Below, one piece after another: positions 907 to 23,607 of a DNA stretch of 24,675 nucleotides. The position numbers and the translations under genes are program-made. Below the pieces are notes generated by a model, which worked only from the letters and a program-made list of their open reading frames with translations, did not search any database and was not told the DNA's origin. Source of the DNA: a virus; IMG/VR virus record IMGVR_UViG_3300027503_000370, positions 1 through 24,675 of that record. One strand, given 5' to 3'. The first letter of the stretch is position 1. Every line of letters starts with the position of its first letter.

Positions 907-1708
907 ATTATTTGAGGGCGGAAACGTATTCAAAGGCCCAGACAAACAACCTTTAACGCAGCGTATTGCTACGGGAGATGTTCCAGCCACTATTGCTTTT
1001 ATCGAAAAAGTAACAGGACTAGACTTCACCAAAGAATTAGATCCTCACGATAAAAAACCTGTAAAATGGCTAGGTACAACTGGACGTAAAGAGCATCCAG
1101 ACGGAACTTTTGAATTAAACAGTTCTGGAGATTTAGATTTATCAGTTGACGCTAACGAAGTAGACAAGAAAGAATTTGCTACAAAACTAGCACAACAATT
1201 TGGCAAAGACAGCGTAAAATTAAGTGGCGATTCTGTACACTTAAAGACACCAATTAAAGGTGACGAAGCCAACGGATTTGTACAAGCAGACTTTATGTTC
1301 TCTAACAATCCTAAGTTCCAGCAAGGAAGTATGATTGGTGGGCAGGGACAGTATCGAGGAGAGCATCGCCATATTGTTCTAAGTTCTATTGCTCGTGCAA
1401 GAGGAATGAAATATAGTCCTAAGTTTGGTCTAGTTGATCCAGAAACAAATGAACCTGTTAAAGGTGGAGATGATTGGAATACTATTGCTAAACAGTTGTT
1501 AGGTCAAACCGCAACAGTTAAAGATATTCGTTCCGTTGATGCTATCATTAATTACATTAAAAAATTACCTAACTATGACGAATTAGTCAGTGCTGCTCGT
1601 GAAACACTAGGGCGTTCAGGAATTGAACTTCCACAGAAAGAATCATTAGAGCACTACACACCTAACAGTCCAAGTTGGATGCGCAAAATTATGGATATGG
1701 TAAAATGA
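896..1708 (+). CDS. Pol-beta-like nucleotidyltransferase, probably virion-associated
   Basis: This 270-residue protein carries the signature of the Pol-beta nucleotidyltransferase superfamily: LGTTGRK at about 59-65 (the Gly-Ser/Thr loop), GDLDL with Asp79 and Asp81 as metal ligands, and a third acidic residue in QADFMF (Asp132). Such enzymes transfer a nucleotide to DNA, RNA or protein; the substrate cannot be read from sequence. The spacing between the Gly loop and the Asp pair is a little longer than usual. The N-terminus, MTNKLFEGGNVFKG, has LFE before GG, a possible prohead-protease site. The gene sits directly upstream of a ligase-like gene in the same operon, which suggests paired nucleic-acid end processing. 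Start at 896 fits the 11-base overlap with the previous gene; the end overlaps the next gene as ATGA. Confidence 0.75.
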   Translation: MTNKLFEGGNVFKGPDKQPLTQRIATGDVPATIAFIEKVTGLDFTKELDPHDKKPVKWLGTTGRKEHPDGTFELNSSGDLDLSVDANEVDKKEFATKLAQQFGKDSVKLSGDSVHLKTPIKGDEANGFVQADFMFSNNPKFQQGSMIGGQGQYRGEHRHIVLSSIARARGMKYSPKFGLVDPETNEPVKGGDDWNTIAKQLLGQTATVKDIRSVDAIINYIKKLPNYDELVSAARETLGRSGIELPQKESLEHYTPNSPSWMRKIMDMVK

Positions 1709-2538
1709 GAATAACCGACATTCTAATAGAATCTAAAAAAACTCTTAAGAACAGTAACCCTTGCTGGAAAGGATATCATCCAGTAGGTACAAAGAAGAAG
1801 GGCGGCAAGACTGTGCCTAACTGTGTGCCAGAGGCTGCTAATCCTGCTCAACAGGCTGCAATCGCAGTTAATATGAAAAAGCAAGGTAAGAAACCTAAGA
1901 ATGAAGCATTTGATGATGCAGAATATAATGATGAATCCGGAATGGCTCAAAACAGCCTACACACTATTCATAGAGCCGCAGTAGGTTTATCTAAGTTAAT
2001 CAAAGACGGAGAGAACCTCCCAGAATGGGTACAGGAAAAATTATCCATTGCTGAAGATTATATGCAGACAGTTTGGGATTATCTAGAGAGCGAGCACGAA
2101 ATGAGCCACACTCCTGAAAGTCTAGAACTAGAACAAGACTTTGATCTTATTGAATCAATCATTGAAGACATTGCAGAAAGCAACGGTGTAGACCCAGAAG
2201 TAGTTTGGGAAGATCTAGAATCCTTAACAGATGACGAGCTATATGTATTTGCTGTTACTTCTCAACTAAACGAAGATTGGCAAAAGGTTAATAAGAAAGA
2301 CAAAACAGACGGTATGAGCCGTAAGGCTGTAAAGGCCTATCGTAGAGAAAATCCAGGTAGTAAGTTAAAGACTGCGGTAACCACAAAGCCAAGCAAACTT
2401 AAAAAAGGTAGCAAGGCCAGCAAGCGCCGTAAGAGCTACTGTTCTCGTTCACGTGGACAAATGAAAATGCACAGCATCAGCTGTGCCAAGACACCAGACA
2501 AGGCAATCTGTAAGGCACGCCGTCGTTGGAACTGCTAA
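1705..2538 (+). CDS. Basic/acidic multi-domain virion-type protein with capsid-targeting-like N-terminus
   Basis: The start is the ATG at 1705 that overlaps the previous TGA, not the TTG at 1675. The protein (277 aa) opens MRITDILIESKK, resembling a T4 capsid-targeting sequence with a LIE cleavage site. Next comes a Cys-containing basic motif (PCWKGYHPVGTKKKGGK, then NCVPE), a central acidic helical region (about 75-190) with EWVQEKLSIAEDYM, and a strongly basic Cys-rich C-terminus (SKRRKSYCSRSRGQ, then KAICKARRRWNC). Similar modules recur in T4-like marine and freshwater phages as uncharacterised DUF proteins. The basic tail suggests DNA or RNA binding inside the head. It lies between a nucleotidyltransferase and a ligase-like protein; function unknown. 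Confidence 0.7.
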   Translation: MRITDILIESKKTLKNSNPCWKGYHPVGTKKKGGKTVPNCVPEAANPAQQAAIAVNMKKQGKKPKNEAFDDAEYNDESGMAQNSLHTIHRAAVGLSKLIKDGENLPEWVQEKLSIAEDYMQTVWDYLESEHEMSHTPESLELEQDFDLIESIIEDIAESNGVDPEVVWEDLESLTDDELYVFAVTSQLNEDWQKVNKKDKTDGMSRKAVKAYRRENPGSKLKTAVTTKPSKLKKGSKASKRRKSYCSRSRGQMKMHSISCAKTPDKAICKARRRWNC

Positions 2539-2738
2539 TGAGAGCCAGTGAGTTTGTCATTGAAAATTTTGCCGATGGAAAGGTAAAGGGAAAGAGCCGC
2601 CCCGGTCGTGTCAAACGTTCTGGTGCTAGCTGTTCTGGATCAGTGACAGATCTACGCAAACGTGCAAAAAATGCAAGTGGTGAAAAGGCTAAAATGTATC
2701 ATTGGTGTGCTAATATGAAGTCAGGAAAAAGTAAATGA
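2538..2738 (+). CDS. Small basic Cys-containing protein with capsid-targeting-like N-terminus
   Basis: This 66-residue protein starts at the ATG at 2538 that shares a base with the preceding TAA. It opens MRASEFVIENF, with VIE in place of LIE as the likely processing site. The remainder is highly basic (GKVKGKSRPGRVKRSG), followed by two conserved-looking Cys positions (SCSGSVTDLRKRAKN and MYHWCANMKSGK). The composition suits a packaged nucleic-acid-binding peptide, comparable in role, not in sequence, to T4 internal proteins. Its last bases overlap the ligase-like gene (ATGA). No enzymatic role is visible. Confidence 0.7.
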   Translation: MRASEFVIENFADGKVKGKSRPGRVKRSGASCSGSVTDLRKRAKNASGEKAKMYHWCANMKSGKSK

Positions 2739-4102
2739 GAGCTTTTGAGTTTTTGATAGAATCAAAACCTGGTAAACAGGCTATGAGCTACAAGCGTAGT
2801 AATAGATATCCTGACGGCAGTGATATTCCTGACAGCTTACCCGATAGGTATCAGCCAGCGTCAAATCCGGGAGTGCCTGCGCAACAAAAATGTAGCAATT
2901 GCGGCTACTATGATAGTAAAACTAAGAAGTGTGACAAGTTCAAAGGTGAGCCTGTGGTCAAACCTGCTTATTGGTGTGCCAAGTGGGAACCTTATAAAGA
3001 AACTGTAACAGAAGCCGAAGCACCTGTACCTAAGAAAGTAGGTCGTGAGTTTAATCACCTAGAAGATCTAGTGTTTACAGAACACGGTGGTGCCAAACGT
3101 GCTGTTGAAGTTTTAAAAAGTCTAGCATCTGATGCTAAAGATGTTTCTATCAAGTGGGACGGTAATCCAACTGTCTATTGGGGCAGAGACGAAGATGGTA
3201 CCTTCCGTATGGTAGGTAAAAATAACTGGGGTCGTGAAGAAGGTAAGAGTTCTAACCCAGAAGAGCTCAAGCAGTTTATCCTAAGTCGCGGCAAAGGAGA
3301 AGACTGGCGTGAGAAATTTGCTGGTGATATGGCTAGCCTATGGCCTATCTTTGAAAAGGGAACTCCCAAAGATTTTAGAGGTTATATCTATGGTGATATC
3401 TTGTTCCATCCTGGAAAACCTTATGACAGTGGTAATGGTAAAATTAATTTTACCCCTAATCAAACTACATATTCAGTTAGAGCAACAAGTCCAGTTGGCG
3501 TAAGATTGGGTAAGGCTAAGGTAGCTATTGCTGCTCACAAACATTTAGATTATTTTGGTGACAAGACTGGAGATGATCTAACAGATGTTAAGGCTCTTAA
3601 TGTCAGTCCAGAACTTGTAGTGTTTGGACAAACCTATGTAGCACATCAACCTGCGGTAAATGCAGACAATCTAGGTGTAATTGAAAAATTAGCCAACCAA
3701 GTTGGCCCTAAAATTGATCAACTATTAGCACCTGTTGCAGGCCTAAGCGATCTACAGACAATCATCTATACCTTTGTAAACAATCAGTCAAAGGCCAAAG
3801 CCTTAGATAAAATAGACACAAACAGTTTCTTTCAGTGGCTACAGGGCAGCAAAGTCAGTGCTCCAAAACAGGCTAAGATTGCTGAATTAAACAAGGCCAA
3901 CGCAGGTGTAATGGATAATATGTTTCATTTAGTGCGCGAATTAATGAAAGCCAAAGACGAAATTATTCGTGAACTAGATGCTGCCGAAGGCGATATTACT
4001 GCACACACTGGCGGAAAACCAGGCGGTGAGGGTTATATGCACACAGGACACGGTGTTAAGCTAGTTCCACGTGATCGTTGGACCCCATTTAGAGCCGATT
4101 AA
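2735..4102 (+). CDS. Ligase-like nucleotidyltransferase with HiPIP-like Cys cluster and capsid-targeting-like N-terminus
   Basis: This 455-residue protein has three visible parts. Residues 1-10 (MRAFEFLIES) resemble a capsid-targeting sequence with the LIE prohead-protease site. Residues 53-84 hold four cysteines (C53, C56, C66, C81 in YWCAKW) spaced somewhat like a high-potential iron-sulfur protein. From about 105 the protein looks like a polynucleotide ligase/capping fold: IKWDG (Lys140) fits motif I KxDG, FRGYIYGDILF fits motif III/IIIa, and GEGYMHT plus GVKLVPRDRW near the end fit motifs IV and V. Motif I lysine would carry AMP. The order and presence of motifs support a ligase-like fold, but activity is unproven. 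It ends the operon containing the nucleotidyltransferase; a late-like promoter follows at 4133. Confidence 0.65.
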   Translation: MRAFEFLIESKPGKQAMSYKRSNRYPDGSDIPDSLPDRYQPASNPGVPAQQKCSNCGYYDSKTKKCDKFKGEPVVKPAYWCAKWEPYKETVTEAEAPVPKKVGREFNHLEDLVFTEHGGAKRAVEVLKSLASDAKDVSIKWDGNPTVYWGRDEDGTFRMVGKNNWGREEGKSSNPEELKQFILSRGKGEDWREKFAGDMASLWPIFEKGTPKDFRGYIYGDILFHPGKPYDSGNGKINFTPNQTTYSVRATSPVGVRLGKAKVAIAAHKHLDYFGDKTGDDLTDVKALNVSPELVVFGQTYVAHQPAVNADNLGVIEKLANQVGPKIDQLLAPVAGLSDLQTIIYTFVNNQSKAKALDKIDTNSFFQWLQGSKVSAPKQAKIAELNKANAGVMDNMFHLVRELMKAKDEIIRELDAAEGDITAHTGGKPGGEGYMHTGHGVKLVPRDRWTPFRAD

Positions 4103-4132
4103 AGCCTATAAACCCTAGTTTTTTCCAATCTG

Positions 4133-4180
4133 ACTAAATACTATGCCGGCCTCTGAGCGAGGTCATAATGATTTAAGGAG
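4133..4180 (+). promoter_or_regulatory. Late-like promoter, 5'-terminal hairpin and strong ribosome site
   Basis: ACTAAATA (4133-4140) would place the transcript start near 4146. The first bases can fold into a hairpin (4148-4153 with 4159-4164, one G-U pair), followed by AAGGAG at 4175-4180, eight bases before the ATG. The same plan recurs at 18322-18409. Confidence 0.55.
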
Positions 4181-4188
4181 AAACTATC

Positions 4189-4581
4189 ATGGCAGACATT
4201 ACATCAGTATATCAAACATATAACAACTCTGGTTCAGGAGTTGCACAAGCAGACGACAACTACGGAAAATTTGCTATCAGCCAATCCGACGTTGGTCGTG
4301 AAGTTGTTCTTAGCATTACTAAGACAAACATCACTAATGCAGAATTGCAAACAATTATTAACTATCTAACAACCAGCCACGGTTCAGCAGGTTCAGGTGA
4401 CTCTGCATTTACAGTTGCAGCAGTTGGTACAGCAGATGGTTCAGCTTTTGTAAGCGGTACAACTGACGTTGTATACCTACGTTTACAAGGTACAGGCGAT
4501 TACACAGTTGATGCATCCGATGCACACGGTGTTACTGGCGCTGCTACTGCTATTGTTGCAGTTTTCAAACCAGCACTATAA
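4189..4581 (+). CDS. Small beta-rich protein, candidate abundant structural protein
   Basis: A 130-residue protein beginning MADITSVYQTYNNSGSG, rich in Ser, Thr, Gly, Ala and Val, with no Cys and almost no Lys. The composition and predicted beta strands suit a capsid decoration or tail surface protein. It has no signal peptide or membrane segment. It is monocistronic: late-like promoter and 5' hairpin before it, a near-consensus AAGGAG, and a strong terminator after it (4611-4634). This arrangement implies high late expression. I do not recognise the family. Confidence 0.75.
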   Translation: MADITSVYQTYNNSGSGVAQADDNYGKFAISQSDVGREVVLSITKTNITNAELQTIINYLTTSHGSAGSGDSAFTVAAVGTADGSAFVSGTTDVVYLRLQGTGDYTVDASDAHGVTGAATAIVAVFKPAL

Positions 4582-4610
4582 TTAGTTAATTCCTAGGGAT
4601 GGGAAGGATG

Positions 4611-4634
4611 GGCCGGATTTATTCCGGCCTTTTT
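4611..4634 (+). terminator. Rho-independent terminator
   Basis: GGCCGGA (4611-4617) pairs with TCCGGCC (4623-4629), followed by TTTTT. It closes the monocistronic unit at 4189-4581. Confidence 0.85.
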
Positions 4635-4641
4635 CTTTGGC

Positions 4642-4649
4642 TATAAATA
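4642..4649 (+). promoter_or_regulatory. T4-late-like promoter, exact TATAAATA
   Basis: This is an exact match to the T4 late consensus, just after a terminator and 18 bases before the ATG at 4660. By T4 geometry the transcript would start about five bases before the ATG, leaving no room for a ribosome binding site. Confidence 0.65.
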
Positions 4650-4659
4650 GTAGCACATT

Positions 4660-5052
4660 ATGGCACGATATAAGATAGTAACCCTAGTAGACATAACTCG
4701 TACCAATTCGACAAGATCGGAATCTGATCCTATTAAAATTGGACAGCAGGCAAATTTTAATTCTCTGCTACAGGCAATAGGATTGAGATCAAATGTAGAA
4801 TGGGTAAGAGATCCAAAAAAGTATACAGGCTCATTACCAGACGACATCAAAGGTAAGGCAACCTATTGGATATGGGAAGTTGACTGTGAAAGAGAAGATG
4901 TTTTCTTAAAAGATAATGATCCCTGCGGACTTTTAAAAGACGATGTTCACGGTGTTCCTATTGTTGACCAATTAGAAAATTCTGTTGACATAACTCCCGC
5001 AGCGTTCCAAACACGCAACGGAAATCAAAATACCTGGATTACCATAATCTAG
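4660..5052 (+). CDS. Conserved-type phage protein of unknown function
   Basis: A 130-residue soluble protein starting MARYKIVTLVDITRTNSTRS. It has a mixed alpha/beta composition, two cysteines in the middle (VDCERED and DPCGLL), and no signal or membrane segment. It resembles small uncharacterised proteins of T4-like phages; I cannot name the family. It is read from the late-like promoter at 4642 with a nearly leaderless transcript. It is the only gene in this window that ends in TAG, which matters because a candidate amber-reading tRNA is present at 18004. Read-through would run in a frame overlapping the next gene and shows no conserved-looking extension, so TAG is probably a true stop here. 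Confidence 0.7.
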   Translation: MARYKIVTLVDITRTNSTRSESDPIKIGQQANFNSLLQAIGLRSNVEWVRDPKKYTGSLPDDIKGKATYWIWEVDCEREDVFLKDNDPCGLLKDDVHGVPIVDQLENSVDITPAAFQTRNGNQNTWITII

Positions 5053-5076
5053 TATTATTCATATTACAATTACCCT

Positions 5077-5084
5077 AGTAAATA
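5077..5084 (+). promoter_or_regulatory. T4-late-like promoter (AGTAAATA)
   Basis: It lies 29 bases before the ATG at 5106 in the gap after the preceding gene and fits the recurring NNTAAATA pattern. Confidence 0.45.
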
Positions 5085-5105
5085 TTATACTGAGGCAATT
5101 ATAAT

Positions 5106-5426
5106 ATGGAAAACTTTAGAAAAAAAACAATTAAACAAATTAGGCTCTGGGCGTGGGCAGCGGCTGTCCTTCCCGTTACGGCTCTTGCAGGCATTTTCTT
5201 TGTATGGCGTTTCTTTGATGGCACATTTTTAGGCTATGTGATGATCACCGGCGAAACTTTGATGTTTGCGGTTGCTGTAGTTTGGTGGTGGTGGGCAATG
5301 TATGTATTTCGAAATCTAGTCAAACACTGGGATGAAACTAAATCAAAAGTAGACAATGTTCTTACTGATATTAAGGATATTAAGAGTCTAGTGATTGATG
5401 TAATTAAACCAGACGAAGATAAATAA
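5106..5426 (+). CDS. Two-pass small membrane protein, candidate holin or membrane accessory
   Basis: A 106-residue protein. After a short basic start (MENFRKKTIKQIRLWAW) there are two hydrophobic segments, about residues 15-37 and 43-68, the second containing a run of five tryptophans. A charged helical tail of about 35 residues follows. The basic start favours an inner-membrane hairpin with a cytoplasmic tail, a common holin layout. The neighbour at 5505 has a coiled coil and a C-terminal membrane anchor, so the two could act together in lysis. No endolysin lies next to it (the M15 peptidase is at 16051), so a membrane-modifying role is also possible. There is no strong ribosome site before the ATG. 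Confidence 0.65.
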   Translation: MENFRKKTIKQIRLWAWAAAVLPVTALAGIFFVWRFFDGTFLGYVMITGETLMFAVAVVWWWWAMYVFRNLVKHWDETKSKVDNVLTDIKDIKSLVIDVIKPDEDK

Positions 5427-5504
5427 AATATAAGAAATTTATAGGCTTTTTTCGCAGGCATAATATTTAGGCATCCAAGTATACCTTATTGGAGATATTT
5501 TATT

Positions 5505-5747
5505 ATGGCTGATATGCCTACCACAAGTTTAGAAAAACAAAGCCTAGAAGCACACGTTGATTTGTGCGCACTTCGTTATCAACAGTTAGATCAACGTCTA
5601 ACTAATTTGGAAGACAAAGTTTCAAACATTCATACTGATATTGTTCAGGGCCAGAAGTCAATGACCAAAGTCATTATTGGTACCGCTGGTACAGTAATTG
5701 CAGGTGTTCTAAGTATTATCATTACCATGCTTATGCGTGGTGGATAA
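5505..5747 (+). CDS. Coiled-coil protein with C-terminal membrane anchor (XhlA-like layout)
   Basis: An 80-residue protein: about 50 residues of helical coiled coil (LDQRLTNLEDKVSNIHTDI), then a single hydrophobic segment (about 55-76) and a short basic end. This matches the general layout of XhlA-type phage lysis accessory proteins, though I see only architecture, not a diagnostic motif. GGAG lies about 10 bases before the ATG. It follows the two-pass membrane protein at 5106, and transcription is probably ended by the hairpin at 5777-5799. Confidence 0.6.
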   Translation: MADMPTTSLEKQSLEAHVDLCALRYQQLDQRLTNLEDKVSNIHTDIVQGQKSMTKVIIGTAGTVIAGVLSIIITMLMRGG

Positions 5748-5769
5748 TTTTTAGCACATTATATACGCA

Positions 5770-5799
5770 GTTAAATAAAGGACCATAGGTCCTTTTTTT
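5770..5799 (+). terminator. Terminator overlapping a late-like promoter
   Basis: AAAGGACC (5777-5784) pairs with GGTCCTTT (5788-5795), followed by T residues to 5799, a typical terminator. The motif GTTAAATA (5770-5777) overlaps its left edge, and T4 geometry puts the start near 5783, inside the hairpin. Late transcripts would then lack the left arm and escape termination. Confidence 0.7.
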
Positions 5800-6228
5800 A
5801 TGACTCAACTTTCTCGACGCCTAGAGCAGATAGTTAAGAAAGAACTATCCAAAAATATCATTCCTGTTCGCACAGAGCGTGGTATTCTTGTAGGCGAAAT
5901 TTTGATAGTCAGTGATGGACCAATTAAATCTCTTTACAAGAACAACGAATTATTATATAATGAAATACATTTAAATTCTATTGCTATTAAAATTGCTAAC
6001 CTATTAGCACTTCGTCAGAGTAATATACTTGCCGATGCATTATATAGAGCGGATCAAGAATATGGACGTTGGTTCACTGATAGCCAAATACTCAGGGCTC
6101 AATATCAAAGAGCAGTAAGTAATAAGGACTTTGATAGGGCTGATATGCTATGGGCAAGATATGTTGAAAGCAGAGATCGTACAATGGTCTGCAAAACCCA
6201 AGCAGAGAGTTTAATAAGAAATGAATAA
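5800..6228 (+). CDS. Conserved-type phage protein of unknown function
   Basis: A 142-residue soluble protein beginning MTQLSRRLEQIVKKELSKN. It starts with a basic helix, has a short beta region (GILVGEILIVSDGPIKSLY) and then long helices rich in Tyr, Arg and Asp. I recognise it only as similar to small uncharacterised T4-like phage proteins. The ATG directly follows the T-run of a terminator and has no Shine-Dalgarno sequence in reach, so expression likely depends on the embedded late-like promoter with a short leader. The gene ends in TAA that forms part of the next promoter (6224-6231). Confidence 0.7.
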   Translation: MTQLSRRLEQIVKKELSKNIIPVRTERGILVGEILIVSDGPIKSLYKNNELLYNEIHLNSIAIKIANLLALRQSNILADALYRADQEYGRWFTDSQILRAQYQRAVSNKDFDRADMLWARYVESRDRTMVCKTQAESLIRNE

Positions 6229-6231
6229 ATA
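6224..6231 (+). promoter_or_regulatory. T4-late-like promoter (AATAAATA) over a stop codon
   Basis: The TAA stop of the preceding gene (6226-6228) is the core of the motif. It lies 33 bases before the ATG at 6257. Confidence 0.5.
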
Positions 6232-6256
6232 TAGTATCAATCTGGACCCTTAATTT

Positions 6257-7756
6257 ATGAAAACTACAGACCTTTTTAAATCAAATAGATCATCTAAAAA
6301 GATCAATGAATCGATGGAAAAATTATTCGGTACAAAGCTAGATTTTGCTAGTTTTGATGTACCAAAGTTGGAAGATGCTCGTAATAAGCTACGTACACAA
6401 TTAAGTCAAGTTCGTTCAGGCAGCGGATTTAATGAAAATATTGAAAATGAAGCAGTAGCACAAGCTCAGTGGATGTTAGACGCTATCAATGCTGAAATTG
6501 CAGAACGTGCAGAGTTTATTGTTGATCCAAGCGTTGCTGAAGTTAGCACAGATGAAGGATTTGGGTCTTTAGAAGATGAAGTTATGCAACTTCTAAAAAG
6601 GTTTGACGAAAATGCCAACGAAATTGGCGCTTACGGAGATCTAGACGCTAAAAAAATTGTCGAACTATTAAGACAAGGTGACTTTGAAGGCGCAGCAGAA
6701 GAAGTATGGTACGCATACAGTGACCAAGACGGTGGCGAAGTTCCACGAATTGAACCGTATGTTGAAGACCTACAAGCAGAATTTGAAGCACTTGCTCAAG
6801 GCGGTGACGAAGACGAGGGTGGAGATACAGACGATGCTTATGCTCTAGCATCAGCAGGACACGGTTCAGATGAAGACTACGGTAGTTTTGGCTACGACGA
6901 AGAGTATCAAGCAGAAGATGCTGACGAGGAAACTAAAGCAGCTCACAATGCTGGATATAAAGATGCTTCTCAAGGAAAGAAAAAGAATCCATACAATCCC
7001 GGATCACCGTCGGCAAAACACTACGATGACGGACAGGATTCATATAAAAGACACTTTGGTGAAGGTACTGTATCAGAAAAAGCACCTCCAGGAGCCAAAG
7101 CAGAACGTATGGTAAAACATATTAAAAAAGGTTATGCCAAAGATGGCAAACTAACCGATAAAGAAAAAAGCATTGCGTATGCTACCGCTTGGAAGCAACA
7201 CAACAAAGAAAAGAACGAGTCAACAGAATCAGGAGAAGATATGACTAAACTAAACGAAGGCGAAGTACAACAGGCCAGTGCTATCGTTACAGCAAAAACT
7301 ATGGTCGACAGAGTTAGCCGTTGGATCGAAGAACTATCTGGCATGGAGAACGACACACTTCTACAGCTAGGCGATTCTATCCGCGATGAAATGGGACAAG
7401 AACAGGCTAAGGCATTTATTAGCCAGTGTGCTCCGGCTATTCAGCAGGCATTGGAAAACTTAAAATCCACACGCGATACATTAAGTACCAGTGTTCGTTC
7501 ATTGGCCAGTGGAGAGCAGCCAACAGATATGCTAGGCGGTGAGCCAGGTGCAGATATGGGAGCTGGAGACGAAATGGGTCCTGCTGAGCCAGATATGATG
7601 AATACAGGCGGAGACGAAAGTGGACTAGATGCTCTAGCAGGTGGCGACGAGTTTGGCGCAAGCGATGCAGCAGCTGGCGGATTAGAAGCAGCTGGACGTG
7701 AACAGCGTGAAAGCATTGATCGTAGCAACAGTCTATTAAGAGTATTAGCAGGTTAA
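6257..7756 (+). CDS. Large acidic scaffold-like protein with RMF-like and Lys-rich insert motifs
   Basis: A 499-residue, very acidic protein. The N-terminal third is helical. Around residues 185-225 there is an Asp/Glu/Gly-rich linker, and at about 230-268 a segment (AHNAGYKDASQGKKKNPYNP, then a Tyr-Gly-Tyr pattern) that resembles ribosome modulation factor. A basic segment follows (HIKKGYAKDGKLTDKEKS), of a kind seen in many phage proteins. From about 335 comes a helical domain, and the C-terminus is Gly/Asp/Met/Ala rich and low complexity. Acidic helical proteins with disordered tails are typical of prohead core or scaffold proteins; that role is an inference. It heads a three-gene overlapping group. 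Confidence 0.65.
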   Translation: MKTTDLFKSNRSSKKINESMEKLFGTKLDFASFDVPKLEDARNKLRTQLSQVRSGSGFNENIENEAVAQAQWMLDAINAEIAERAEFIVDPSVAEVSTDEGFGSLEDEVMQLLKRFDENANEIGAYGDLDAKKIVELLRQGDFEGAAEEVWYAYSDQDGGEVPRIEPYVEDLQAEFEALAQGGDEDEGGDTDDAYALASAGHGSDEDYGSFGYDEEYQAEDADEETKAAHNAGYKDASQGKKKNPYNPGSPSAKHYDDGQDSYKRHFGEGTVSEKAPPGAKAERMVKHIKKGYAKDGKLTDKEKSIAYATAWKQHNKEKNESTESGEDMTKLNEGEVQQASAIVTAKTMVDRVSRWIEELSGMENDTLLQLGDSIRDEMGQEQAKAFISQCAPAIQQALENLKSTRDTLSTSVRSLASGEQPTDMLGGEPGADMGAGDEMGPAEPDMMNTGGDESGLDALAGGDEFGASDAAAGGLEAAGREQRESIDRSNSLLRVLAG

Positions 7757-8031
7757 TGAAACTTTTTAACATCATTAGTGAACGTGAAATGTCCAGGTTA
7801 GCTGAACTCGATGCTCCTATGCTTGGACAACAGCCTGCTGGACAGCCTGGCGCACAGCCAATGACTCCTGCACAGGATCCTCAGGCACAGGCTAAACTTC
7901 AAGCACAACAAGTAAAACAACTAGCTGATCAAAGAAAACAAATTCAAGATGCTATCAAACAAAAGCAACAAGAATTAGTAGATCTACAAAAACAGTTATC
8001 TAGTTTAAATTCTCCATCGGGTGGTGTATAA
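7756..8031 (+). CDS. Small coiled-coil protein with proline/glutamine-rich segment
   Basis: A 91-residue protein that begins MKLFNIISEREMSRLAELD. Residues 25-50 are rich in Pro, Gln, Ala and Gly, and residues 50-83 form a clear Gln/Lys/Leu coiled coil (IKQKQQELVDLQKQLSSL). It overlaps both neighbours by one base (TAATG). The short hydrophobic start with ISE resembles the other capsid-targeting-like N-termini in this window. A structural or scaffolding role is likely by context only. Confidence 0.65.
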   Translation: MKLFNIISEREMSRLAELDAPMLGQQPAGQPGAQPMTPAQDPQAQAKLQAQQVKQLADQRKQIQDAIKQKQQELVDLQKQLSSLNSPSGGV

Positions 8032-8399
8032 TGAGATTTTTTGAATTTGCCGGTGATGATGTAGGCGTAGACAAGTTTGTTATGATTTTAAAGAACTTTA
8101 TAGGTCGTGCTTCATCAAAAGGACAACCTGCTAAATTAAACTGGGCAGCACTTCAAAAAATAGCATCTGATGCAGGATTTGAAATGGGTTCTGATTACGA
8201 AACATTTAAATCAATGTATGATAGTACTCCTGCTATCCAAGCATTAGTAAGAGATTTTAATGCCGATGGCGTTAATCTAAATGTTCCTGGCACAGACCAA
8301 GATACCGAAACACCTGTAAAAGGTGGAGAAACAAGCCAAGATGCTGTAGATAAAATGGCTGCATCTGCCGCTCCAAAACAATTAGCCGCTCAGGCTTGA
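8031..8399 (+). CDS. Small phage protein of unknown function
   Basis: A 122-residue soluble protein starting MRFFEFAGDDVGVDKFVMIL, close in style to the MRAFEF start at 2735 but lacking LIE. A helical middle is followed by a Thr/Gly/Asp linker and an Ala-rich tail. It overlaps the gene before it by one base (TAATG). Its TGA lies inside the -35 box of a sigma70-type promoter for the next gene, so the operon ends here. Function unknown. Confidence 0.65.
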   Translation: MRFFEFAGDDVGVDKFVMILKNFIGRASSKGQPAKLNWAALQKIASDAGFEMGSDYETFKSMYDSTPAIQALVRDFNADGVNLNVPGTDQDTETPVKGGETSQDAVDKMAASAAPKQLAAQA

Positions 8400-18003: not shown

Positions 18004-18079
18004 GCGCTAGTAGCTTAGTGGCAGAGCCGGAGCTTCTAAACCTCTTGTGTCGTGGGTTCGATTCCCACCTAGCGCACCA
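18004..18079 (+). tRNA. tRNA; best fold gives anticodon CUA (amber), alternative tRNA-Arg(UCU)
   Basis: A full cloverleaf is visible. Acceptor GCGCTAG (18004-18010) pairs perfectly with CTAGCGC (18069-18075), followed by A and encoded CCA. The D-arm is 18013-18027; the T-arm is GTGGG/TTCGATT/CCCAC. With one base at position 26, the anticodon stem is 18029-18033 with 18041-18045: three Watson-Crick pairs, one G-U and one C-C mismatch. It encloses the loop TTCTAAA, so U33 is followed by CUA. Shifting the frame by one base to read UCU (Arg), which would suit the many AGA codons here, leaves only one or two good pairs. I therefore prefer CUA, but the mismatch keeps this uncertain. The tRNA is co-oriented between two small genes. 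Confidence 0.8.
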
Positions 18080-19311: not shown

Positions 19312-19869
19312 ATGCAATAGATTGAATATGCTTGTAAGGATGTAGTGTTCCATTTTAATAAAAAACACTTAGAAGATGAGACCGTTCCGATGTGGGTCCT
19401 TAAAACACACGGTGAAACATTTTATGTCAATCACGTTGACGCACAAATGGCTTGGAGTACCAAAGAAACTCCTGACAACAGCCATACTAAAGGTAGCCTT
19501 AAGTTCAAAGAATGTTTGTTAACAATCAATGAACAGAACGAAGCTACATTATCAACTCTTTCACTTATAGATAAGATTCGTTTACGCAACCAAAAGTTGG
19601 GTATCACTCGCATCATTTTTAACTGGGGTGGTGCTATGCACAAGGCTCTGAGTAATAACGAGTTTAAACACAGTCCATTTAAGAATGTAGAAGGAGCCTG
19701 CGGCTCATCGTTTATTATCTGCGATCTACTAAAGAAAGAAGAAGCTACCTTAGCAGGACTCAAGTATCAGGGTTGGCGCATACTCAAACCAAACGAAGCT
19801 TATTATCAAGCCTATGATAAAAAAGGTACAATTTGGGAAGATGAAGATATTGACATTTATGAAGAATGA
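19312..19869 (+). CDS. Conserved-type phage protein with an in-frame amber at codon 3
   Basis: The frame reads ATG CAA TAG ATT GAA TAT and then stays open to TGA at 19867. The ATG is eight bases after a clear AAAGGA. The protein includes WVLKTHGETFYVNHVDAQMA and WSTKETPDNSHTKGSLKFKE, then a Tyr/Trp/Asp-rich end, in the style of conserved proteins of T4-like phages; function unknown. Three readings are possible: TAG is decoded, perhaps by the tRNA at 18004; translation starts at GTG 19345, which has AAGGA only four bases upstream and gives 174 residues; or the TAG is a mutation or sequencing error. The region IEYACKDVVFHF between TAG and the GTG looks like normal coding sequence, which favours the longer protein. 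Confidence 0.7.
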
Positions 19870-19871
19870 GT

Positions 19872-19879
19872 GTTAAATA
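19872..19879 (+). promoter_or_regulatory. T4-late-like promoter (GTTAAATA) before the tmRNA
   Basis: It lies just after the preceding TGA, and its predicted start (about 19885) is at the head of the tmRNA acceptor piece. Confidence 0.45.
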
Positions 19880-19882
19880 TAA

Positions 19883-20200
19883 GTTATTGCTGTATGAAGC
19901 AGAGAGAAAGGTATTCTGGACGCGGGTTCGACTCCCGCCTGGTCCACCAGAGAGAGCATTAGAGAACCGTTACTAAGGGCTTCGGCCGCGGCGTAGCAGA
20001 CGTCATACTAGTGTTCTCCCTAATGGGCCAGTCATGGTTTCGACAGGGTGATGAGTAACGAAGTGGACAGCTCGGGAATGTGAAACCCGTAGGGTTGGGG
20101 GAACTCGGCCGAAGAAGCAAAAAAAGTAAACGCAAACGATACACGTTTCGCATTAGCCGCTTAAGGCTTTGGGTAGCTATACCTCGAAACAGAAAATAGT
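19883..20200 (+). ncRNA. ssrA: Circularly permuted two-piece tmRNA
   Basis: tmRNA frees stalled ribosomes and tags the nascent protein. The order here is permuted: the acceptor piece comes first, with T-arm GCGGG/TTCGACT/CCCGC (19922-19938), CTGGTCC (19939-19945), A and CCA (to 19949). The coding piece starts at GGGCCAG (20025-20031), which pairs with CTGGTCC (one G-U), followed by the typical GGTTTCGACAGGG. The tag frame GCA AAC GAT at 20132 encodes ANDTRFALAA and ends TAA at 20164. A 75-base spacer (19950-20024) contains ATTAGAGAAC and GTTCTCCCTAAT, which pair imperfectly and would bring both ends together for processing. AUACC (20179-20183) can pair with GGUAU (19910-19914) as part of P2. 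The mature ends are estimates. Confidence 0.93.
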
Positions 20201-20225
20201 AAAGGCTACTTCGGTAGCCTTTTTT
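20201..20225 (+). terminator. Rho-independent terminator of the tmRNA
   Basis: AAGGCTAC and GTAGCCTT pair around a TTCG tetraloop, followed by a T-run. Confidence 0.9.
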
Positions 20226-20226
20226 C

Positions 20227-20279
20227 TTGACAACTGATCTAAAAGCATATATAGTTAACAATCAGTGTTAACACTGATT
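20227..20279 (+). promoter_or_regulatory. Consensus sigma70 promoter with a perfect 20-bp palindrome at the start site
   Basis: TTGACA (20227-20232) and TATAGT (20250-20255) are spaced by 17 bases. The expected start (about 20262) lies within AATCAGTGTTAACACTGATT (20260-20279), a perfect palindrome well placed as an operator for a dimeric repressor. The outer-membrane barrel gene begins at 20350 with AAGGAG upstream. Confidence 0.75.
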
Positions 20280-21633: not shown

Positions 21634-22043
21634 TGTTAGACTGCCTAATACTAGGAGATAGTATTGCGGTGGGTACCGCCAATGTTCGTAAAGAATGTAT
21701 TAGTTACAGCATTGGCGGATATAACACTTGGCAATGGAATCGTAAATTTGCGGATAAGAATCTAGCAGCAAAATCTGTTATTATCAGTCTTGGTACTAAT
21801 GATCATAAAGGTGTGCATACCTTTAAAGAATTAGAATCAATGAGAGAACGAGTACAAGCAGATCGTGTATATTGGATACTTCCTCCCTGTAATAATAAAT
21901 TCTGTAAACCTGATGTAAACGAGATTGTAGAAATTATTGCTCGTAATTGGGGAGATACAATTATTAAAACAGAACGATTGCAAGCTGATGCAATACATCC
22001 TAGTTGGGCAGGTTATAAAGAACTAGCGGAGAAAACAAAATGA
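21633..22043 (+). CDS. SGNH/GDSL-type hydrolase, small
   Basis: A 136-residue protein starting at the ATG that shares a base with the ahpC stop (an earlier start at 21594 would lie inside ahpC). It has the SGNH family blocks: LILGDSIAVG with the nucleophilic Ser10, SLGTNDHKG (the Asn block) and DAIHPSWAGY with the catalytic Asp and His. The Gly block between them is weak. Such enzymes are esterases, lipases or deacetylases of sugars and lipids; the substrate is unknown. Its place between ahpC and ahpD, with ATGA coupling to the latter, is unusual and may reflect insertion into an ahpCD pair. Confidence 0.8.
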   Translation: MLDCLILGDSIAVGTANVRKECISYSIGGYNTWQWNRKFADKNLAAKSVIISLGTNDHKGVHTFKELESMRERVQADRVYWILPPCNNKFCKPDVNEIVEIIARNWGDTIIKTERLQADAIHPSWAGYKELAEKTK

Positions 22044-22546
22044 ACTTCAACGAAACAATTAAAGGCGCACTTCCAGAGTACGCTAAAGATACAAAACTAA
22101 ACCTAGATGCTGTTCTACTTCGCAGTACATTAGATCCGGACATTGCAATAGGTTGTGCTGTAGCTGCATTAGCCGCAACAGGCAACGGCAAGGTTCTAAG
22201 TATTCTATTAGCAGATGCTCCAGTACACGGCGAAGCAGCAATGACAGCCGCAAGCATTATGGCACAGAACAATGTATGGTATCCATATGTTGAAATGGCA
22301 GATGATGAACAGCTAAAGGGATTGCCAGCTCAGTTACGTATGAATGCGATTGCTAGCCACGGTGGAACTACCAAGGCAAACTTTGAAGCATTTAGTTTGG
22401 CTGCTAGTATTGTGGGCAAATGCGAGTTTTGCGTAAAAGCCCATTACGATGGTTTGAAAACTATGGGTTATACTGTTGAGCAGTTGAGAGACATCGGCAG
22501 AATAGCGGCAGTAATGAATAGTGTAGCAAAGGTGCTGAATAGTTGA
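22040..22546 (+). CDS. ahpD: Alkyl hydroperoxidase D (AhpC reductase)
   Basis: A 168-residue AhpD with the core catalytic site: Glu116 in NFEAFSLAAS and Cys128, Cys131 and His135 in KCEFCVKAH. AhpD accepts electrons from a lipoyl protein and reduces AhpC; the C-x-C type of AhpC upstream fits. The start overlaps the SGNH gene (ATGA). Its last 38 codons, from Cys131 on, have a second version at 23491-23607 that is almost identical in protein (35 of 38 residues) but differs in 27 codons. An HNH gene starts 12 bases after the stop, so the 3' end has probably been exchanged during homing. Confidence 0.92.
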   Translation: MNFNETIKGALPEYAKDTKLNLDAVLLRSTLDPDIAIGCAVAALAATGNGKVLSILLADAPVHGEAAMTAASIMAQNNVWYPYVEMADDEQLKGLPAQLRMNAIASHGGTTKANFEAFSLAASIVGKCEFCVKAHYDGLKTMGYTVEQLRDIGRIAAVMNSVAKVLNS

Positions 22547-22552
22547 TAAATA
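22545..22552 (+). promoter_or_regulatory. T4-late-like promoter (GATAAATA), predicted leaderless HNH transcript
   Basis: It overlaps the ahpD TGA. T4 spacing puts the first transcribed base at 22558, the A of the HNH ATG, as also seen at 16038. Confidence 0.45.
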
Positions 22553-22557
22553 TTTCT

Positions 22558-23244
22558 ATGAGAGACCGATCTTATAGAAAAATATACAAACAGCACTACG
22601 GTGAAATCCCCGTTGATGCTGATGGACGATCTTTTGAAATCCATCACATCGATGGGGATCACTCTAATAATAATCCTCTAAATCTTAAAGCAGTCACTAT
22701 CCAGGAACACTACGACATACACTACAGTCAAGGAGACTGGTATGCTTGTTTGTTGATTTCCGGAGCACTAGATATTACACCAGAAGAGAAGTCTAATCTA
22801 TCAAGATTAGGAGCACTCAAAGCAGTTGAGAATGGAACCCATAACTTTCTTGGTGGCAAGATACAAAAGCAAGCACAAGACAGATTAGTCGAAGCAGGCA
22901 ATCATCACTGGCAAGATAGTGAAAAGGCAAGTAAAAGAAACTTAAAGCGAATAGCCGAAGGCAACCATACATTTTTGGATAAAGATTGGGCCCGTAAAAA
23001 AGAGTTAGAAAAAGTCAAGAACGGAACACATCCGTTTTTGGGCGGAGCAGTTTCTCGCCAAACTAATGAGAAACGAGTAGCGGAAGGAACCCATAACTTT
23101 TTGGGCGGCAAATCTGTAAAGAATCAACTGGCTAACGGAACACATCCAAGCCAAATCAAAAAAGTCTGCCCGCATTGTAGCAAAACGGTTAGTTCCGGAA
23201 TGTTTAATCGTTGGCACGGCGATAACTGTAAGAACAAGGAATAA
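22558..23244 (+). CDS. HNH homing endonuclease with repeated DNA-binding motifs and zinc finger
   Basis: I start this at ATG 22558 rather than the TTG at 22543, which overlaps ahpD. About 228 residues: FEIHHIDGDHSNNNPLNLKA followed by EHYDIHY gives the HNH nuclease core near the N-terminus. The middle holds at least five related units (NGTHNFLGG, EAGNHHWQD, EGNHTFLDKD, NGTHPFLGG, EGTHNFLGG) of the kind that bind DNA in NUMOD-type homing enzymes. The C-terminus is a zinc-finger-like CPHC with GMFNRWHGDNC. It is free-standing and located between two versions of the ahpD 3' end, its probable home site. Confidence 0.88.
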   Translation: MRDRSYRKIYKQHYGEIPVDADGRSFEIHHIDGDHSNNNPLNLKAVTIQEHYDIHYSQGDWYACLLISGALDITPEEKSNLSRLGALKAVENGTHNFLGGKIQKQAQDRLVEAGNHHWQDSEKASKRNLKRIAEGNHTFLDKDWARKKELEKVKNGTHPFLGGAVSRQTNEKRVAEGTHNFLGGKSVKNQLANGTHPSQIKKVCPHCSKTVSSGMFNRWHGDNCKNKE

Positions 23245-23247
23245 ATA
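23240..23247 (+). promoter_or_regulatory. T4-late-like promoter (AATAAATA) over a stop codon
   Basis: It contains the HNH TAA and lies 15 bases before the ATG at 23255, implying a two-base leader. Confidence 0.45.
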
Positions 23248-23254
23248 CTACATT

Positions 23255-23488
23255 ATGAAAACACTTAGAGATTACATTAACTTAATAGAAACCGCCCAGC
23301 AAGGTGTGGCGGAAGGCTCTTTAGAAGAATACGGCGATACTAACAAAGGTCAAAAACAGTTGGCAAAGGTTCATAAACGAGCAGTAGATAGAGTGACTTC
23401 TAAGCAAGCAGACACTGATCCTAAGTATGCTAAGAAAAATCAAGATACTGCTAATGCCTCGTGGGAAAGATTGAAAGATAAAGATTAA
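23255..23488 (+). CDS. Small charged protein with capsid-targeting-like N-terminus
   Basis: A 77-residue protein that begins MKTLRDYINLIETAQQGVAE. LIE at residues 10-12 matches the prohead-protease site and the start is close in plan to T4 internal-protein leaders (MKTYQEFIAE). The rest is hydrophilic and basic, with DTANASWERLKDKD at the end. It lies between the HNH gene and the displaced ahpD tail, so it was carried in with the element or inserted at the same place. Packaging in the head is inferred; function unknown. Confidence 0.65.
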   Translation: MKTLRDYINLIETAQQGVAEGSLEEYGDTNKGQKQLAKVHKRAVDRVTSKQADTDPKYAKKNQDTANASWERLKDKD

Positions 23489-23490
23489 CC

Positions 23491-23607
23491 TGCGTAAAAG
23501 CACACTACGACACACTCAAGAAGGAAGGCTACACTGTAGAACAGCTTCGTGACATTGGACGTATTGCCGCAGTAATGAACTCGGTTGCCAAAGTTTTAAA
23601 CAGTTAA
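23491..23607 (+). pseudogene. Displaced second copy of the ahpD 3' end (38 codons)
   Basis: The bases from 23491 encode CVKAHYDTLKKEGYTVEQLR and then a tail equal to that of AhpD, ending VLNS and TAA. No start codon or full-length frame precedes it; the upstream frame stops at 23486-23488. Compared with codons 131-168 of ahpD, only three residues differ, while 24 further codons differ silently. The shared 5' edge is TGCGTAAAAGC. It is the remnant of an earlier ahpD end, or a donor segment, left after insertion of the HNH element. Confidence 0.88.

Follow-up and report, generated by a model that had tools for sequence, protein, structure and literature searches.

How does a phage gene come to possess two 3' ends? 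The question is raised by the ahpD gene of IMG/VR virus record IMGVR_UViG_3300027503_000370, whose 24,675 bases are referred to here as the window. The gene is complete (22040-22546; CMD domain PF02627, E 2.2e-10 for the whole protein), and a second version of its terminal part lies downstream. From the Cys131 codon to the stop, 22430-22546 (ending in TGA) and 23491-23607 (ending in TAA) each measure 117 nt; 35 of the 38 encoded residues are identical (92%) and nucleotide identity is 66%. Among the sense codons, 27 of 38 differ, 24 of them silently; with the stop included, 28 of 39 differ, 25 without any change of residue or stop. The original prediction had described two nearly identical stretches of 38 residues with 27 codons different, 24 silently, separated by an HNH endonuclease gene and a small gene. 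Both claims held, the former on recounting the sense codons and the latter through a PF13392 match and the open frame at 23255-23488. An AhpD search of the window's own record returned the gene and the fragment only (fragment E 6.8e-18). Six further contigs (L083-L088) are the same as the window over all 1568 nt from the ahpD start to the fragment end, which argues against an assembly error. The features are collected in Table 1.

Table 1. Features of the ahpD locus in the window, and other phage genes with the same layout (L numbers are our handles for contigs and loci)
Record	Feature	Position	Strand	Basis or remark
Window	ahpD (CMD/AhpD-like) codons 1-126, resident body of the target gene	22040..22417	+	PF02627; body 70-87% to carrier L089; element-type bodies scattered in body tree
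Window	Replacement 3' end of ahpD, codons 127-168, stop TGA, element-borne	22418..22546	+	98-100% to L089
Window	Stranded native 3' end of ahpD, codons 131-168, stop TAA	23491..23607	+	77/117 nt to intact end; 75-90% to 71 native ends
Window	11 bp TGCGTAAAAGC, common to both ends	left copy 22430-22440, right copy 23491-23501	+	sequence
Window	Mobile unit as a whole (mobility inferred), about 1071 bp (1.07 kb): new ahpD end, HNH gene, small gene	22418..23488	+	identity steps against L089
Window	HNH homing endonuclease gene, I-TevIII-like	22558..23244	+	PF13392 E 2.2e-10; phrog_12324 E 9.8e-39
Window	Small passenger gene, 77 aa	23255..23488	+	93-100% to L089 apart from 177-nt insertion there
L123	Target gene of phrog_16202			second end in frame with HNH
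L144	Unnamed target gene			second end in frame with HNH; 18 bp common at junction (own count)
L362	IMPDH/GMP-reductase, PF00478			sense nuclease
L368	Metallophosphoesterase, PF00149			antisense nuclease with NUMOD3
L387	Cell-wall hydrolase, PF07486			antisense nuclease with NUMOD3

Relatives of the gene tell which of the two ends is native. We compared the window with the best 80 of at least 597 confirmed IMG/VR ahpD loci, a set made up of the best matches to the window AhpD and not a random sample. At 71 of these loci the 3' end resembles the stranded fragment (75-90%) more than it does the intact end (59-72%); the remaining nine comprise five with the same element (L001-L005), one remnant (L007) and three with mosaic ends (L008, L020, L021). 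The 3' ends of uninterrupted relatives were the check proposed by the original prediction, which would have been refuted had they matched the intact end and never the fragment. The fragment was matched instead, and the refuting outcome was not observed. The 71 native loci hold 50 distinct ends, and 50 of the loci served for the end comparison and the trees, the rest having been dropped by hand, mostly as repeats. Seven full element-type ends (L090, L091, L094 and the mosaics being excluded from this comparison) are 86-100% alike, with a median of 97, against 64-85% for their own bodies; to the 50 native ends they are 56-77% identical.

A single residue does not suffice to tell the two kinds of end apart. 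Glu129 was considered as a mark of element-type ends, having first been seen in 13 of 13 element rows against His in 49 of 50 natives, and was rejected. A scan for the Glu motif gave 74 contigs, read as 51 AhpD-like and 23 unrelated, and the residue is not diagnostic because many of the 51 have native-type ends. Since natives also carry Glu129, the base that would give resistance is not pinned by it.

The extent of the transferred DNA is delimited by comparison with L089, another carrier. Identity rises from 78% in 22400-22417 to 100% from 22418 onwards and falls from 100% in 23421-23488 to 78% in 23489-23520. The ahpD body is 70-87% identical between the two, 22418-23488 is 93-100% identical save for a 177-nt insertion in L089, and the fragment is 78-82% identical. 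These steps therefore define a mobile unit of 1.07 kb. On the left it begins at codon 127, immediately ahead of the CxxC codons, which refines the original prediction, centred on Cys131. The insertion thus lies inside the ahpD coding sequence, at codons 127-131, and stranded fragments start between codons 130 and 133 by our reading. The two copies of TGCGTAAAAGC may mark the neighbourhood of the cleavage or insertion site, an inference from sequence alone.

The arrangement recurs wherever a close relative of the HNH gene was found. In all 12 contigs of this kind (L083-L094, 85-100%) the HNH gene stands directly behind an element-type ahpD end and a second, stranded ahpD end follows downstream. 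The 12 contigs represent six sites and five ahpD bodies: L091 and L092 are near-identical, and L090 has the same body as L091 with a different fragment (65%). Identity among carrier bodies goes down to 48% (ungapped), against 79-100% for the intact ends. At the six sites the Cys131 equivalent of the stranded end lies 7, 181, 249, 426, 1481 or 2007 nt past the last HNH codon. The minimal form, seen in L091 and L092, consists of the carried end and the HNH gene only; extra cargo takes the form of the small gene in the window and L089 and of longer stretches with open frames in L090 and L093. Among ahpD relatives generally, the HNH gene is present or absent, with converted flanking DNA. The stranded ends of L090, L093 and L094 open with an in-frame ATG (MIKAHYE..., MSKAHYD...), and their translation as short peptides is possible.

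Trees of ends and bodies disagree: the element-type rows are grouped by their ends and scattered by their bodies. The end tree (105 nt, 86 rows) places all 12 element-type rows, of which three are mosaic, in one 100/99 set of 19 rows, whose other seven members (L191, L178, L233, L179, L236, L186 and L181) are alleles without HNH in the 451-7819 nt available. Seven stranded fragments, the window's included, fall among the natives. If the three mosaics are scored as native, 5 changes of the element label are required on this tree. The body tree (243 nt, 77 rows) requires 11 changes for these 12 rows, much like the 11.3 averaged by shuffled labels, 239 of 500 shuffles being as low. The alignments are short, many forks are unresolved and the bootstrap of the end tree is not settled. 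Furthermore, 17 of the 51 AhpD-like Glu contigs were added by hand, L177, whose end is that of L170, and L090, whose body is that of L091, were omitted, with the L090 fragment retained, and L191 and L201 were dropped from the body tree as too short.

Empty sites complete the picture. The window's fragment and downstream flank align by blastn with the uninterrupted L028 from its nt 391 (74% over 1071 nt), and the corresponding parts of L089 and L093 align with the element-free L223 (80% over 1128 nt) and L048 (90% over 1618 nt), respectively. These alignments begin at about the Cys131 codon. On the upstream side, blastn matches to His129 natives typically end at nt 383 of the gene; because the fragment alignment starts at nt 391, native nt 384-390 are absent from the fragment.

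The gene at the centre of the unit encodes a protein of the same family as I-TevIII of phage RB3 (43% identity in the alignment, 35.6% by tblastn; both phrog_12324). Its frame is open from a TTG at 22543 and ends at 23244; the ATG at 22558 is probably the start, in preference to the listed TTG. Candidate His/Asn residues, which we take to be the catalytic ones of the HNH motif, are invariant across 10 aligned members including I-TevIII, and a Zn-finger-like CPHC...HGDNC occurs at the C-terminus, where the Cys/His cluster is invariant in the alignment with I-TevIII. The frame is open in all 12 close relatives (L083-L094). For the small gene, no family was found in Pfam at E 1, and the best PHROG reached only E 0.064. 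It contains CAAGGTGTGGCGGAAGGC, present in two copies 177 nt apart in L089, matching the 177-nt insertion there, and once in L007. Another feature of its first part (23255-23317) recurs at several gene starts from 1700 to 8060: the small products open on a motif similar to M(K/R)xxx(F/Y)xxxI(E/S). Starts of this type resemble T4 capsid-targeting leaders.

Taken together, the borders, the foreign and native identity of the two ends, the empty sites and the repeated insertion into diverged backgrounds are shown. They are very likely to reflect intronless homing, in which ahpD is restored with a foreign, resistant end; cleavage, mobility and resistance are inferred. One could envision the following sequence of events. 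The I-TevIII-like HNH protein would cut an element-free ahpD at or near the CxxC active-site codons (about 128-133), the donor being immune since its sequence differs at the cut region. Repair would be copied from the donor, with the ahpD body as left homology; on the right, the first good homology would be that of the stranded end and its flank, past the endonuclease gene. The recipient would gain a complete ahpD with the carried, cleavage-resistant end, along with the HNH gene and passengers, and its old ahpD end would be left behind as a fragment. By keeping the protein and not the DNA, the carried end would both remove the cut site and deny a nearby right-hand repair partner, so that the endonuclease is copied too. 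Carried and native ends share few long identical runs, from which we infer that the stranded end, or DNA past it, would be the main place for right-hand strand invasion. Likewise inferred are the cut site and the blocking of short repair by sequence difference.

The original prediction had proposed such a homing element, carrying its own ahpD end, restoring the target and stranding the old end. This is supported by the borders, the empty sites, the incongruent trees and the repeated insertion; destruction of the cut site remains inferred, and so does its proposal of a cut near the Cys131 codon, for which no enzyme data exist. Its description of the end as "recoded" is one of two possibilities. 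The end may instead be foreign, derived from a diverged ahpD, and the data do not separate this from recoding in place.

Some alleles have element-type or mosaic ends and no intact HNH gene. The ends of L008, L020 and L021 switch to the native type inside the last 38 codons; no HNH gene lies within 5 kb in L008 and L021, and the L020 contig terminates in the gene. These ends look as if they might be repair products that stopped short, a possibility resting on inference. L007 combines an element-type end with an internally deleted HNH gene, similar only to HNH residues 1-43, and no stranded fragment was found within the available 5 kb. L170 has a full element-type end, with neither HNH gene nor fragment in the 5.5 kb searched, and L174 has kept both the carried and the stranded end around a different 1.2 kb devoid of HNH. 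Because of L170 and the seven alleles of the end-tree set mentioned above, the possibility that part of the spread of element ends is due to plain recombination must be entertained.

This leads to the strongest of the rival explanations, namely that ordinary homologous recombination imported a diverged ahpD 3' end and that the HNH gene, passive or dead, merely lies next to it and was not the driver. In its favour are the wholly or partly element-type ends without HNH (L170 and L174; the mosaics L008 and L021) and the lack of HNH activity data. Against it, an element-type end accompanied by a stranded second one is present in all 12 contigs with a close-group HNH gene, every one of the 12 HNH frames is open, the motif is conserved, the carried end and the nuclease lie in one near-identical tract, and other homing-type nucleases occur in the same layout at other genes. 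We consider this alternative unlikely. Less tenable still is the idea that part of ahpD was duplicated in tandem in this lineage, that one copy then diverged silently and that HNH was inserted between the two. Two neighbouring ends with near-identical protein sequence would fit; however, relatives differ, with seven fragments placed among natives and intact ends in a separate set, and uninterrupted relatives match the fragment together with its flank, making this very unlikely. A group I intron or other split gene, with the fragment as downstream exon, is suggested by the nearest characterised relative, I-TevIII of RB3, being encoded inside the interrupted nrdB gene, but is all but excluded: ahpD is already complete upstream of the HNH gene, every Rfam intron family stayed below its gathering score in the window, L091 and L093, and in L091 the fragment's Cys131 codon lies so close to the last HNH codon (7 nt) that no space is left for a ribozyme outside the coding parts.

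Homing with gene-end replacement having thus been retained for ahpD, does the layout occur at other phage genes? Loci were screened for genes whose C-terminus is encoded again downstream. The loci overlap and contigs may recur under several ids, so the totals are not independent. The first screen (4904 ORF ends, 311 loci and the window) gave 50 matches, the second (1613 ends, 80 loci) 27 and the third (1442 ends, 80 loci) 5. In the first, second ends without a long open frame of their own before them occurred at the ahpD-HNH sites and at L174 (ahpD, no HNH now), and the second ends of L123 and L144 are fused to the HNH frame. Most other matches of this screen have 55-209 codons open before the second end and look like tandem paralogues. 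By the tables, most of the other screen matches are paralogues or repeats; the short or weak matches of L113, L174 (at 7133) and L481 are outside that assessment. On the strength of this screen, the two-end ahpD layout is more than chance.

Five non-ahpD genes show the layout with other nucleases (Table 1), refining the original framing of a single case. For the L362 nuclease, Pfam gave nothing at E 0.01; the protein is 25-33% identical to phage proteins, some of them annotated as homing endonucleases; by eye, the L362 and L368 nucleases could be of GIY-YIG type and that of L387 of HNH type. At the IMPDH/GMP-reductase gene, five relatives at 81-86% match the second end. The nearest, L406 (86% to L362), shares 72 of 75 nt with the stranded end versus 54 with the intact end and continues into a similar flank; L407-L409 (81%) and L424 (82%) share 67 and 65 nt with the stranded end versus 49-50 with the intact one. 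Of 79 other relatives, 46 were compared; 19 are nearer the stranded and 27 the intact end. Margins are small among the distant ones, and it is the near relatives that carry this case. The L144 comparison took in 18 of 68 other relatives, all of them far (DNA 47-67%): 10 are nearer the intact end, 6 nearer the second end and 2 tie. All 4 other relatives of the L123 target (51-56% overall) are slightly nearer the intact end in protein (29-33/49 versus 26-29/49-50), and since they lean this way a native end is not shown there. We thus regard the evidence as strong for ahpD, good for IMPDH/GMP-reductase, and limited to layout for the other four, no relatives having been compared for L368 and L387.

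It is tempting to speculate that gene-end replacement recurs as a mode of homing in phages. In this broader reading, varied nucleases (I-TevIII-like HNH, NUMOD3 or GIY-YIG-looking), in sense or antisense orientation, would act near the 3' ends of ahpD, IMPDH/GMP-reductase, metallophosphoesterase, cell-wall hydrolase and two unnamed genes. Each carried end, preserving the protein and dissimilar in DNA, would immunise the locus and raise a recombination barrier that forces nuclease and passengers to be copied along. The balance tips in favour of this idea by a narrow margin, and it is weakened because the L144, L123 and full IMPDH/GMP-reductase comparisons are mixed or contrary. In cultured phages, no stranded end passed the screen among 354 ORF ends in 13 regions picked from match lists. 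An antisense nuclease gene (annotated segX-like/GIY-YIG) overlaps the metallophosphoesterase 3' end, as in L368, in Ochrobactrum phage vB_OspM_OC (L395, 2486-3810) and Rhizobium phage RHph_I1_18 (L396, 2495-3937); a short FGHWH-like stretch, seen by eye past the nuclease gene of L395, is perhaps a decayed stranded end. Separately, L107 and L123 share a similar stretch, GTAGTTCACGAGA...CTCCAACTAC...TAATGCTATA, upstream of the I-TevIII-like HNH gene, with translated echoes before several others; the stretch upstream of HNH in L107, L123, L141 and L148 has no Rfam match at gathering score.

As to the origin of the window, ahpD was not found in the phage collection searched, and GTDB genomes gave only a 54% match, on one Betaproteobacteria MAG contig. 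A tmRNA at 19836-20255 (+) matches the betaproteobacterial (1.8e-35) and permuted (6.8e-21) Rfam families and hints at a possible betaproteobacterial host or source. A tRNA at 18004-18079 (+) with anticodon CTA, called tRNA-Pyl by ARAGORN, is a possible amber suppressor; TAG is the stop of 1 of the 34 window ORFs taken as likely genes.

These findings imply that a selfish nuclease needs neither intron nor intein to occupy a coding sequence, and that the host gene need not be lost, extending a fungal-mitochondrial strategy to phages and to another nuclease family. Gene-end replacement explains abrupt 3'-end mosaicism in phage genes and leaves a simple signature for sequence scans, an intact end followed by a nuclease and a stranded second end, and the natural mosaic alleles make the proposed block of short repair by sequence difference directly testable. 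The open-access literature searched (including PMC12724721, PMC5871332 and PMC8672057) yielded no phage precedent for homing of this kind, in keeping with the original remark that no common phage example was known, and a report elsewhere could have been missed.

Among known systems, the free-standing homing endonucleases of T4, SegF, SegG and MobE, are encoded between genes and cleave hundreds or thousands of bp away (PMC2988022). The ahpD element resembles them in having an endonuclease gene without intron or intein, in flank conversion and in donor resistance inferred from sequence difference. It meets the definition of a free-standing homing endonuclease in its HEG-family nuclease with conserved motif, the absence of intron and intein, and presence or absence with converted flanks, but not in the typical T4 placement between genes, away from the cleavage site: the unit lies within the coding sequence of its target and brings the missing end. 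Nor does it satisfy the criterion for a group I intron, a ribozyme core between gene parts; I-TevIII sits within the nrdB intron of RB3, whereas the ahpD-linked HNH gene sits in none. The closest parallels are the mobile-ORF elements of fungal mitochondria that replace gene ends, in Allomyces atp6 and in Glomus atp6, atp9, cox2 and nad3 (PMC3630166). There, too, an endonuclease gene lies inside a gene, the element supplies an in-frame C-terminus, the native C-terminus is stranded downstream, and the native end groups with element-free relatives while the inserted end does not. Even the identities of the two ends are similar (63.5% nt and 91% aa in Glomus atp6; 66% and 92% here), and the comparison to fungal atp6 made by the original prediction is upheld. 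The ahpD element differs in residing in phage DNA and not in mitochondria, in its I-TevIII-like HNH in place of a LAGLIDADG or GIY-YIG nuclease, in its passenger genes, and in the mosaic and remnant alleles visible across relatives. It thus works like the fungal gene-end replacers without being one of them, since location and nuclease do not conform. What is new, in all likelihood, is the combination in a phage of intronless homing, its cleavage and mobility being inferred, with replacement of the target's own end.
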